NCBI GenBank assembly: GCA_963995525.1
Contig: OZ023214.1
Location: 16,782,738-16,846,737 of the forward strand
Origin: Escarpia spicata
Taxonomy: Eukaryota > Annelida > Polychaeta > Sabellida > Siboglinidae
Direction of reading: 5' to 3'
DNA length: 64,000 nucleotides
Shown: in pieces, positions 12,620 through 42,600 of the stretch
Layout: the number at the start of each line of letters is the position of its first letter
How positions within the stretch are numbered: position 1 is the first letter of the stretch
Program-made: the position numbers and the translations under genes
Notes under the pieces: model-generated
Told to the model about the DNA's origin: nothing
Seen by the model: only the letters and a program-made list of their open reading frames with translations
Database searches by the model: none

Positions 12620-15600
12620 GTGAGATAACAAGATATTTCTAAAGTAAAAGTAAGTTCTTATATAGCGCAAATTCCAGTCCTGAGGTCTGCTCAAAGCACT
12701 TTACCCTTTACTCCCTGGCAGACCTGTTCTATAGAATACTATCGTGACTTCTCTGGGAAGCATTCAACCACGCTGCAATTACTGCATGAAGACTATTCAT
12801 ACGAAAATATCCACCAGTGTCTATAGCTGGGTAGTGGGCAGGGCTGTAGCAAGTACATTTATTTTGTACTTGAGTAAAAGTACAAGTAACTCTGGAAAAA
12901 GCTACTCAAGTAAAAGTACTTTTTGAAAATGTACTTGAAGTACAAGTAAAAAGTAAACAAATGTACTTGAAGTAAATGCAAAGTACTTTTCTAAAAACTT
13001 TTGACATGGTCACCCACTGCAAACAAACATGTAAATTCAGTAGTGTGCAAAACAAACACGTTATTGAACAGGACAGGATCCTCCGCAGGATACAGTGACA
13101 GGCTGGCTCCTCAAACAAACGCCTTATTGAGCTTGAGCATCTATTTATAGATATATGCTGGCGGAAACCAGTTCCGGGCTTCAGGCATTATCGTTCGTTA
13201 CTAATATTTTGGAGCTCCAAATTTTTAACGCATAAATTATGGATACTTTGTTACATTTATGAAAAGTACACACATTTGTACTTCGTTACAAGTAAAAGTA
13301 CTCCTAAAAATGTATTTTGTTACAACTAAAAGTACTCCTAAAAAATGTACTTCGTTACTTACGAAAAGTAAACTTTTCTACTCAAGTACAGTAACGAAGT
13401 ACTTGTACTTCGTTATGTCCCAGCTCTGGTAATGGGTACTCATTCATAAAGATGAGTGAACAGGCACAATGTAGTGAGTGAACTTGCCCAAGGTCTGAAA
13501 CGACAGCAAGATGTTTCGAACCCAGAATCTATTGATTGAGTGACTGATGCTCTAACCGATATAGAGGACATATTTAATCATATTTAATGGATTGGCGTTA
13601 AATGTCGGCTGGGCAATTGGCTTTCGCAAGCTACCAGATGTAACAGTCAAAATAATGTCTTTACAATTAAAGCAAGTGCACATTTTTATTAAACAAACTG
13701 TACACATTACTTAATCTATTAACACAATACCGGCTAAACATCCCGACATAAAAGAACTGGATTGGTGGTAGGCAAACAAGCTGTGGAAGCAGGTTTAAGC
13801 TATACAAATATGTCAATTGTTGAAAGTGAAAACAAGGCAAGTGCATTCTTTGCAAATTCAATACCTATTTCACATATATGGCCACAAACATGCACAAGCA
13901 CTGGAGTGGATGTTTATGGACCAGGTCAATAAAGGAAATAATCCCCAAACCTGCGAGTTAACATATTTCAACACGGCAAGTGACTTTTTTAGAGAGTATT
14001 TAAAGTTTAGGAAATAGTGTCTTGAGGCCATGTGTGCTGATGTTTCAGGCCAATGCGATGGCGGTGGACTGCAAGGGACAGGTGGCTCTGTTGGCGGGGT
14101 GAGTGGACACACTTGTTTCTCTTGTCTCCTTCAAGTTATGTGTAATTGCATAGATAATTGACAAGTGGTTTATGGGCACATTCTTGTTTGACTAAAGTAA
14201 AGCTACATGCTGATCAATGCGTATTTAATGTATTGGTTTAGTAAATTATTATGGTTTTATTACCAAAATGTTCATATTTAGCTCTTACCTCTTTATAAGA
14301 TAAAGATTTTATAAGATTAACCACACACTTGTAAGATCCATTAAAACCACCACACAACCACACCATGCATCAATCTGCAGCTGCAATCAGAAGTAACCTT
14401 GTTACATTCAGTAAACACATGGTGACAGTGGCAAGGGACCTTGTTGTTACGTGCAATAAGTGTGAGGTCATGGTGGTGAATCTGGAACCTCATTGTTACG
14501 TACAGGAAGCACATGGTTGCAGTAATGAGTCTGGCAGCTTGTTGTTACATAATGTTCAGTAAGCGCACGGTCTCTAGTGAGTCTGGAATCTCATTGTTAT
14601 GTACAGGAAGCAGATGGTGATTGTAGTGAGTCTGGAACCTCGTTGTTACATACAGGAAGCGGATGGTGACTATAGTGAGTTTGGACAAGCCCCATGAGAA
14701 CGTGAAGAAGATCCCGCGTCAGAGCAAGTGGGAGATCAGTGCAGCCCAGTGGAACCCCCACCCCTGCCACTCCACCCTCTTTATAACAGCGGTCAGTACT
14801 ACTCACCCCCTGCCACTCCACCCTCTTTATCACAGCGGTCGGTACTACTCACCCCTGCCATTCCACCCTCTTTATCACAATGGTCAGTACTACTCACCCC
14901 TGCCATTCCACCCTCTTTATCACAGCGGTCAGTACTACTCACCCCTGCCATTCCACCCTCTTTATAACAGTGGTCAGTACTACTCACCCCTGCCACTCCA
15001 CCCTCTTTATAACAGCGGTCAGTACTACTCACCCCTGCCACTCCACCCTCTTTATCACAGCGGTCAGTACTACTCACCCCTGCCATTCCACCCTCTTTAT
15101 CACAGCGGTCAGTACTACTCACCCCTGCCATTCCATGCTCTTTATCACAGCGGTCAGTACTGCTCACCCCTGCCACTCCACCCTCTTTATAACAGCGGGC
15201 AGTACTATTCACCCCTGCCACTCCACCCTCTTTATCACAGTGGTCGGTACTACTCACCCCTGCCACTCCACCTTATTTATCACAGCGGTCAGTACTACTC
15301 ACCCCTGCCACTCCACCTTCTTTATCACAGCGGTTAGTACTACTCACCCCTGCCACTCCACCCTCTTTATCACAGCGGTCAGTACAGTACTACTCACCCC
15401 TGCCACTCCACCCTCTTTATCACAGCGGTCAGTACAGTACTACTCACCCCTGCCACTCCACCCTCTTTATCACAGCGGTTAGTACTTCTCACCCCTGCCA
15501 TTCCACCCTCTTTATCACAGCGGTCAGTACTACTCACACCTGCCACTCCACCCTCTTTATCACAGCGGTCAGTACAGTACTACTCACCCCTGCCACTCCA

Positions 15601-39600: not shown

Positions 39601-42600
39601 GTCTACTACCATGTATCTACCTACATACATACTCTGACATCCAGTCTGTTATCATGTATCTACCTACATACACACTCTGACATCCAATCTGTTATCATGT
39701 ATCTACCTACAGACACACTCTGACATCCAGTCTGTTACCATGTATCTACCTACAGACATACTCTGACATCCAATCTGTTATCATGTATCTACCTACATAC
39801 ATAATCTGACATCCAGTCTGTTATCATGTATCTACCTACATACATACTCTGACATCCAGTCTGTTATCATGTATTTACCTACATACATACTCTGATATCC
39901 AATCTACTATCATGTATCTACCTACAGACACACTCTGACATCCAGTCTACTATCATGTATCTACCTACAAACACACTCTGACATCCAATCTGTTACCATG
40001 TATCTACCTACAGACACACTCTGACATCCAATCTGTTACCATGTATCTACCTACAGACACACTCTGACATCCAGTCTGTTACCATGTATCTACCTACAGA
40101 CACGCTCTGACATCCAGTCTGTTATCATGTATCTACCTACAGACATACTCTGACATCCAGTATGTTACCATATATCTGCCTACAGACATACTCTGACATC
40201 CAGTCTGTTACCATGTATATACCTACAGACATACTCTGACATCCAATCTGTTATCATGTATCTACCTAAAGATATACTCTGACATCCAGTCTGTTACCAT
40301 GTATCTACCTATAAATATACTCTGACATCCAGTCTGTTACCATGTATCTAGTACTATCTACCTACAAACATACTCTGACATTCAGTCATGTATAAACTAC
40401 ATTGTATAAACTGACATATATGTTTTACACACTTTGACAGTCGACTACCATGTATCTACCTACAGACATACTCTGACATCCAGTCTGTTACCATGTATCT
40501 ACCTACAGACATACTCTGACATCCAGTCTGTTACCATGTATCTACCTATAAATATACTCTGACATCCAGTCTGTTACCATGTATCTAGTACTATCTACCT
40601 ACAAACATACTCTGACATTCAGTCTACTACCATGTATCTACCTACAGACATACTCTGACATGCAGTCTGTTACCATGTATCTACCTACAGACATACTCTG
40701 ACATCCAATCTGTTACCATGTATCTACCTACAGACATACTCTGACATTCAGTCTACTACCATGTATCTACCTACAGACATACTCTGACATCCAGTCTGTT
40801 ATCATGTATCTACCTACATACACACTCTGACATCCAATCTGTTATCATGTATCTACCTACATACATAATCTGACATCCAGTCTGTTATCATGTATCTACC
40901 TACATACATACTCTGACATCCAGTCTGTTATCATGTATTTACCTACATACATACTCTGATATCCAATCTACTATCATGTATCTACCTACAGACACACTCT
41001 GACATCCAGTCTACTATCATGTATCTACCTACAAACACACTCTGACATCCAATCTGTTACCATGTATCTACCTACAGACACACTCTGACATCCAATCTGT
41101 TACCATGTATCTACCTACAGACACACTCTGACATCCAGTCTGTTACCATGTATCTACCTACAGACACGCTCTGACATCCAGTCTGTTATCATGTATCTAC
41201 CTACAGACATACTCTGACATCCAGTATGTTACCATATATCTGCCTACAGACATACTCTGACATCCAGTCTGTTACCATGTATATACCTACAGACATACTC
41301 TGACATCCAATCTGTTATCATGTATCTACCTAAAGATATACTCTGACATCCAGTCTGTTACCATGTATCTACCTACAGACATACTCTGACATCCAGTATG
41401 TTACCATATATCTGCCTACAGACATACTCTGACATCCAGTCTGTTACCATGTATCTACCTACAGACATACTCTGACATCCAGTCTGTTATCATGTATCTA
41501 CCTACAGACATACTCTGACATCCAGTATGTTACCATATATCTGCCTACAGACATACTCTGACATCCAGTCTGTTACCATGTATCTACCTACATACATACT
41601 CTGACATCCAGTCTGTTATCATGTATCTACCTACAGACATACTCTGACATCCAGTCTGTTATCATGTATCTACCTACATACATACTCTGACATCCAGTCT
41701 GTTATCATGTATCTACCTACATACATACTCTGACATCCAGTCTACTATCATGTATCTACCTACAGACACACTCTGACATCCAGTCTGTTACCATGTAACT
41801 ACCTACAGACACGCTCTGACATCCAGTCTGTTATCATATATCTACCTACAGACATACTCTGACATCCAGTATGTTACCATATATCTGCCTACAGACATAC
41901 TCTGACATCCAGTCTGTTACCATATATATACCTACAGACGTACTCTGACATCCAATCTGTTATCATGTATCTACCTACAGACACACTCTGACATCCAGTC
42001 TACTACCATGTATCTACCTACAGACACACTCTGACATCCAGTCTGTTATCATGTATCTACCTACAGACATACTCTGACATCCAGTCTACTACCATGTATC
42101 TACCTACAGACACACTCTGACATCCAGTCTGTTACCATGTATCTACCTACAGACACGCTCTGACATCCAGTCTGTTATCATGTATCTACCTACAGACACG
42201 CTCTGACATCCAGTCTGTTATCATGTATCTACCTACAGACACGCTCTGACATCCAGTCTCATATATGGTATAAACTGACATACATTTCTTTCTGCCTCAG
42301 TTCAATCTTTGTAAAATTGCTAGTTGGTAATCCATAGATATGAAATGAATTGTGAATTGCTACTGTGTATTATGTGTTTTTGCAAGTTATACTTAACAAG
42401 ATGTATGTTTACCATTATTTAACACGTATTATGGATTCTGGATCATGTTTTGCTTCATGTTCTTTGTATCACACTGTACAACGCTATGATGATTATTCAG
42501 CATTATTTATTCAATGTTGTGATTCCGTCGACAGGGTGTGGTCATATCTTAGACAACTTTGGCCTGAGTTGCAAGAATATATTATTAAGGAGGATGTTAA

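Follow-up and report, generated by a model that had tools for sequence, protein, structure and literature searches.

The 64,000-bp window analysed here (Escarpia spicata, contig OZ023214.1, positions 16,782,738 to 16,846,737 of the forward strand) contains the gene WDR59, in which nine tandem arrays were located, eight of them lying at exon borders. The WDR59 exons were called by hand from the window sequence, guided by tblastn, and the exon numbering of an earlier, sequence-only reading of the same DNA agreed with the resulting model. The human WDR59 protein in PDB matched the first 471 amino acids of the model (3.7e-136), and numerous animal WDR59 orthologues were retrieved by search. Downstream of exon 22 the gene reaches about position 53881 through the homologous exons 23-26, and a frame break ahead of exon 23 suggests that an exon was overlooked in the model. 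Exon 18 of the first model was removed because the orthologues had no counterpart of it; the final counts were therefore based on 48 supported exon borders, or 50 when exon 18 was included.

Tandem Repeats Finder (TRF) was adopted to locate the arrays, and the units of the nine arrays in WDR59 were 11-52 bp long, with different consensus units in different arrays (Table 1). Two of the nine were joined from several TRF rows, namely the 31-bp array at exon 12, to which the row 21987-22106 was assigned, and the 43-bp array after exon 22, which was taken together with the degenerate row preceding it. Introns 9 and 16 consisted mostly of array sequence. The TRF periods agreed with the unit lengths given in the sequence-only reading for the arrays at WDR59 borders, and the 32-bp array was absent from its list. 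In the order of Table 1, the distances of the nine arrays to the nearest of the 48 borders were 0, 0, 0, 8, 0, 7, 0, 1428 and 6 bp, so that eight of nine lay within 10 bp of a border. The probability of this was 2.2e-13 when seeds were placed at random in intron sequence (0.02 for each array), and 2.3e-11 when each array was kept in its own intron. This count assigns the row 39125-39212 to the 43-bp array, which by the strict main TRF rows starts 177 bp off the border; on that basis the count was 7/9, with P values of 4.0e-11 and 3.8e-9, respectively. Placement of the WDR59 arrays on borders by chance, already considered unlikely in the earlier reading, is excluded. The remaining short TRF repeats in WDR59 (the rows 39125-39212 and 21987-22106 left aside) were at least 48 bp from borders. 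The same picture was obtained from a local-alignment scan of the 50 borders with exon 18 included, in which eight borders, exactly those that bear arrays, had duplicated segments above the 99% level set by 600 control positions. No half-decayed two-copy duplication exceeded this level at any other WDR59 border, the next best being the exon 8 acceptor (P 0.037).

The contribution of coding sequence to the units was evaluated by continuing the register of each array across the border into the exon, with 500 shuffled exons as control. At five borders the units contained the junction itself and 7-33 exon bases, as had been claimed for both sides of exon 3 and for exons 10, 13 and 17. The exon nucleotides matching in register were 24/30 at the exon 3 acceptor, 32/33 at the exon 3 donor, 27/33 at the exon 10 acceptor, 7/7 at the exon 13 donor and 12/12 at the exon 17 acceptor, and none of the 500 shuffles reached these values at any of the five. 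The match at the exon 22 donor was marginal (1/500 shuffles), and the units at exons 12 and 14 and at the doubtful exon 18 were without exon bases in this test. The copies upstream of exon 10 translate to PFGKDLITVMV, similar to PFGKGLVTVVV in the exon and to PFSNGLVTVMV in human WDR59. As these decoys still encode the conserved exon peptide, the direction ran from exon to array, and exon 10 was the source of its array.

Table 1. Positions of WDR59, of the tandem arrays and of other features (window coordinates unless a sample piece is named)
Feature	Unit and copies	Coordinates	Strand	Description
WDR59 exons 1-22		12569..39119	+	hand model, single open frame, 850 amino acids, GT-AG introns
Exon 3 acceptor array	about 49 bp, 6 copies	14400..14685	+	local alignment begins 256 bp 5' of border and stops 30 nt within exon; TRF row 14476-14685
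Exon 3 donor array	45 bp, 26 copies	14759..15945	+	begins 33 nt within exon; TRF
Exon 10 acceptor array	49 bp, 21 copies	19676..20712	+	runs 33 nt into exon; TRF row 19676-20696
Exon 12 array	31 bp, old, degenerate	22004..22595	+	stops 8 bp 5' of exon; joined TRF rows
Exon 13 donor array	52 bp, 73 copies	24349..28043	+	begins 7 nt within exon; TRF
Exon 14 array	11/22 bp	28243..28824	+	stops 7 bp 5' of exon; TRF
Exon 17 acceptor array	22 bp, 8 copies	30575..30750	+	runs 12 nt into exon; TRF
32-bp array	32 bp, 42 copies	32305..33663	+	no supported border; 28 bp 5' of doubtful exon 18; TRF
Exon 22 donor array	43 bp, about 72 copies	39125..42259	+	after the donor, first copies degenerate; TRF rows 39125-39212, 39296-42259
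Kinase array	34 bp x 14	L025:8328-8810		acceptor of exon encoding QFGYVYKG; 9/9 exon bases; 0/500 shuffles
MDM1 array	22 bp x 14			donor; 36/44 exon bases; 0/500 shuffles
SLC26-like donor array	32 bp x 22			donor of exon GMAYGLLCG; 11/13 exon bases; 0/500 shuffles
SLC26-like acceptor array	35 bp x 7			acceptor of exon GMAYGLLCG; 29/29 exon bases; 0/500 shuffles
F-box gene		1273-3018	-	582-amino-acid open reading frame
(AG)n tract		43137-43523		387 bp, in long WDR59 intron
Reverse transcriptase		46401-49517	+	intact open reading frame, 1039 amino acids
AC-rich row		58860-59039		low-complexity TRF row outside WDR59

Tandem copying of a junction also copies its splice site. In the six arrays at exon 3 (both sides) and exons 10, 13, 17 and 22, the splice dinucleotide was retained in 190/206 copies, or 184/200 when the genuine copies were left out. 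AG was found in 5/6, 20/21 and 8/8 copies at the acceptors of exons 3, 10 and 17, and GT in 25/26, 69/73 and 63/72 copies at the donors of exons 3, 13 and 22. This retention was about the same as the general conservation of the units, and thus no special selection on the dinucleotides was shown. A small scoring matrix was derived from WDR59's own splice sites; by its scores, five of the six arrays contained some AG or GT that came up to the genuine site, and the array at exon 22 contained none. If the nearest decoy were used, a stop would be met at exons 10 and 13, and the extension at the exon 3 donor would remain open. The exon-proximal site is presumably the one used.

The arrays differed in age. 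The mean similarity of neighbouring units ranged from about 60% at exon 12 and 68% at the exon 3 acceptor to 94% at the exon 3 donor, which implies repeated events at different times. At the exon 3 acceptor the likeness to the exon copy rose exonward (0.63, 0.69, 0.79, 0.77, 0.83), and no clear exonward gradient was found in the others. Exact internal blocks were detected in two arrays, one of 443 bp at an offset of 456 in the exon 13 array (24591-25489), and two of 552 bp at an offset of 1064 and 390 bp at an offset of 1150 in the exon 22 array (39236-41375). These blocks indicate either recent block copying or a duplication in the assembly, and those of 443 and 552 bp are compatible with unequal exchange. 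Short flanking repeats are known to seed minisatellites, and if slippage between two short direct repeats gave rise to the initial duplication, a word at both ends of an array would be expected. Such a word of 4-10 bp, present both where the exon match ends and at the array's intron edge, was seen by eye in 3/8 arrays: CAGTTTG at the kinase gene described below, GGCCTTGTCA at exon 10 and TCTG at the transporter acceptor.

Sequence from elsewhere in the genome was also read, 300 kb in 30 pieces. Four 50-kb blocks were chosen by position on contig C1, and one of these was the start of D, a stretch of 140 kb (C1:49.96-50.10 Mb); it was extended both ways, as genic, after an array had been seen in MDM1, and the border arrays of the kinase and SLC26 genes came from the extensions. 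By Pfam, the genes of D were a tyrosine kinase (PF07714, 9.8e-86), presumably a receptor resembling MET, an SLC26-like sulfate transporter (PF00916, 1.2e-22) and MDM1 (PF15501, 1.5e-26); no Pfam family matched a fourth piece, taken to be the STAS part of the transporter. Four arrays in D included exon bases (Table 1), of which the 35-bp unit was read from the sequence since TRF fuses this array with a 29-bp array. The splice dinucleotide was kept in 7/14 copies of the kinase array (AG) and in 16/17, 20/22 and 7/7 copies of the other three. Border arrays are therefore not confined to one gene but occur in four genes of the same genome, and the view of the sequence-only reading that they are a property of one gene was too narrow. 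In two genes they flank one exon on both sides, WDR59 exon 3 and the SLC26-like exon GMAYGLLCG.

In D, 4/19 arrays touched one of 25 identified borders (0.33 on average in 5000 random trials, 3 at most), and 6/19 were within 30 bp of a border (0.43 on average at random, 4 at most). The excess is optimistic, because the list of borders was made by hand and partly from array edges, which favours array-adjacent borders; if the real borders numbered 70, about 0.92 arrays would touch one at random on average and the probability of four or more would be 0.015, rising to 0.045 for 100 borders. Two near-border arrays in D, L026:7019-7275 and L014:4083-4491, lay 19 bp from an SLC26 acceptor and 25 bp from an MDM1 donor. 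A 33-bp array (L025:9810-9997) that lies within an intron of the kinase, its distance to an identified border being 245 bp, had a unit with the acceptor-like TATCAG/GT (motif P 0.010) and is possibly a mirage detached from its exon. In the printed copies of the kinase border array, CTG replaced CAG in two near the exon, and the first four and the exon copy had CAG; this pattern could be loss of decoys beside the used site, or drift.

These results probably reflect minisatellites of the mirage type known from amphioxus, that is, duplications born by slippage at exon borders, grown on the intron side and tolerated there. A tandem duplication of a short segment spanning the splice junction would come first, probably through slippage or a template switch from one short direct repeat to another, and the array would then enlarge on the intron side through unequal exchange and block copying. 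The arrays would be tolerated because neither the original splice site nor the coding bases are lost from the exon-adjacent copy, and because the spliceosome, under exon definition, would skip the distal copies. Normal splicing, the slippage step and the lack of function of the arrays are parts of this scheme that we infer. R-loops, which the sequence-only reading had offered as a cause, or a G-rich strand are unlikely to act generally and were rejected as the common cause, as the GC skew of the nine WDR59 arrays ran from -0.56 to +0.47 without a common sign. Its other suggestion, selective tolerance of array growth on the intron side only, is in keeping with all cases; such growth under selection alone, however, does not account for the excess of arrays at borders.

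Several observations weigh against the mirage interpretation. The 32-bp array, one of the nine in WDR59, has its nearest supported border 1428 bp away, and 13/19 arrays in D were more than 30 bp from every identified border. The array at exon 12 keeps AG in just 4/22 copies and the kinase array in just half of its copies; five of the eight arrays viewed by eye had no clear flanking word; and use of the exon-proximal site is an assumption. The genome-wide enrichment at splice sites that the earlier reading had proposed to count was approached in samples only: the count in D exceeded the random mean, and an annotation-free Fisher test of splice motifs in the array units, which has little power, gave no significant excess in the window, D or the other blocks. 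For donor and acceptor motifs, respectively, this motif-only test gave P values of 0.48 and 0.052 for the 9 arrays of the window, 0.33 and 0.085 for the 17 of D, and 0.24 and 0.88 for the 9 of the other blocks, the last being the three other 50-kb blocks and L001 (160 kb together); within the sampled pieces, exons were identified in D only.

The border excess can also be read without any mutation bias at borders. Duplications may arise anywhere in introns, with a duplication step that requires nothing special, and those at borders may be retained longer since their exon end, being under selection, is protected from deletion and overwriting; growth was on the intron side wherever exon bases were shared, as selection would impose. 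Against this, the excess of eight arrays out of nine at borders is large for an effect of retention alone, and correction from the exon predicts a more uniform exon part, which was not consistently seen. The uniformity of exon and intron parts in the six arrays was 0.78/0.88, 0.97/0.96, 0.95/0.91, 0.92/0.90, 0.92/0.95 and 0.92/0.93, and on the same values exon-anchored gene conversion was rejected as a process shaping the units. Retention alone is possible, with the balance tilting against it, and we lean towards the view that borders also mutate more than other intron DNA. That the arrays started within introns and expanded, or deleted their flanks, until selection on the exon halted the edge would suit exons 12 and 14, where they end 6-8 bp short of the border without exon bases, as well as introns 9 and 16. 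Coding bases in the units of five WDR59 arrays and four elsewhere, and the conserved peptide encoded by the exon 10 decoys, refute this origin for the exon-bearing arrays, and as a general account it is quite improbable.

A role in splicing, as redundant or recursive sites or as regulators of exon inclusion, is in line with the high dinucleotide retention in the non-genuine copies and the full scores of decoys in most arrays, and tandem dual-specific splice sites are in use in UBC, according to the passages covered of PMC10809524. It is unlikely, as the retention follows general unit conservation and the nearest decoys at exons 10 and 13 run into a stop. Nor were array-bearing sites weaker than others (Mann-Whitney P 0.45 for donors and 0.53 for acceptors), a result by which the attraction of arrays by weak splice sites was likewise rejected. 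An assembler that multiplied units or blocks could have yielded the exact blocks of 443 and 552 bp, but the units vary, the arrays vary in age and the pattern occurs in four genes; the sampled contig of 89.9 Mb speaks for high assembly continuity, and such an error could alter copy number but not put units onto exon borders. An artefact is hardly credible.

The affinity of the gene was assessed on the WD40 region. In the tree, Capitella, a metagenome protein and the window WDR59 formed one group (support 95/96), to which amphioxus did not belong, and the pair with Capitella alone was poorly supported (83/52). In this region the window WDR59 shared 74% identity with Capitella, 71% with the metagenome protein, 67% with Owenia and 64% with Branchiostoma. 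A longer search ranked the brachiopod Lingula top; Owenia, Tubulanus and Capitella followed in that order, and Branchiostoma was twelfth. Other repeats were also observed in WDR59 introns. The long intron 3' of exon 22 holds the (AG)n tract and a non-long-terminal-repeat-type reverse transcriptase with RVT_1 and endonuclease domains, 97% identical across 78% of its length to an ENA protein cluster. A dispersed repeat (12718-12833 and 19044-19159, 78% identity over 116 nt) had similar text near 21280-21600 and 23200-23490 in other introns, by eye, with the look of a short interspersed element; ARAGORN with bacterial settings, run over the whole window in search of the head of such an element, gave zero transfer RNAs. 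Outside WDR59, TRF found one more long row in the window, which is AC-rich, and the neighbouring gene on the opposite strand encodes an F-box (PF12937, 2.7e-11).

Mirages have been reported in amphioxus Adh3, the globins BflGb6 and BflGb9, PGBD5 and troponin C, with units of 10-72 bp in Adh3 and 150-160 bp in the globins; regular splicing was undisturbed, and length and somatic variation was reported (PMC3087553 and PMC3902484, in the passages covered). The likeness that the sequence-only reading suggested was found in each feature that could be compared with these passages. The unit spans the border and includes coding bases in nine arrays (five in WDR59 and four in D); both border types are affected, with acceptors at exons 3, 10 and 17, the kinase and SLC26, and donors at exons 3 and 13, MDM1 and SLC26; unit lengths are in the reported range (11-52 bp in WDR59, 22-35 bp in the other genes); and AG or GT is kept by many units. 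Unlike mirages as described there, the arrays at exons 12 and 14 lack coding bases, and that at exon 22 is marginal. The present arrays appear to be of the same kind in a second phylum and on a larger scale, occurring in an annelid at eight borders of WDR59 and at one exon in each of three further genes, with up to about 73 copies; they are seen in the genomic sequence of one haplotype. In the open literature searched, which leaves most subscription journals outside its scope, the only reports were those from amphioxus and no annelid case was found. An earthworm metallothionein gene has intron minisatellites, which are not described as border-spanning in the passages covered of PMC12783039.

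With a second phylum, four genes, donors and acceptors, and both sides of two exons, exon borders become a candidate for a general birthplace of minisatellites. It is conceivable, at somewhat less than an even chance, that splice junctions are such birthplaces throughout this genome, through a border-directed mutation process shared with amphioxus, old or recurrent, and that many genes thereby hold introns crowded with decoy sites, tens in number and of full strength, which have to be disregarded under exon definition. If so, decoy-filled introns can feed intron gain. The arrays offer a natural test of spliceosome choice where near-identical sites are present by the dozen.

Two other systems, taken from the passages covered of the reports cited, are related. 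In the polyubiquitin gene UBC, coding in-frame units carry tandem dual-specific splice sites at which AGGT serves as both sites (PMC10809524), and there as here a splice site recurs in every unit of a tandem array. In contrast to UBC, the WDR59 units are intronic, the only periods divisible by three are 45 and 48, the others being 49, 31, 52, 11, 22, 32 and 43, and AAG/GT stands at the border only in the unit of exon 13 among the splice-bearing units listed. Intron gain via tandem duplication of AGGT-bearing segments has been described (PMC4974935, PMC2891723), and mirages have been proposed as a route to it (PMC3087553), a route that becomes testable by counting in annotated genomes. In intron gain as in the arrays of E. 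spicata a tandem duplication copies splice signals; there a new intron results, whereas here existing introns were enlarged.

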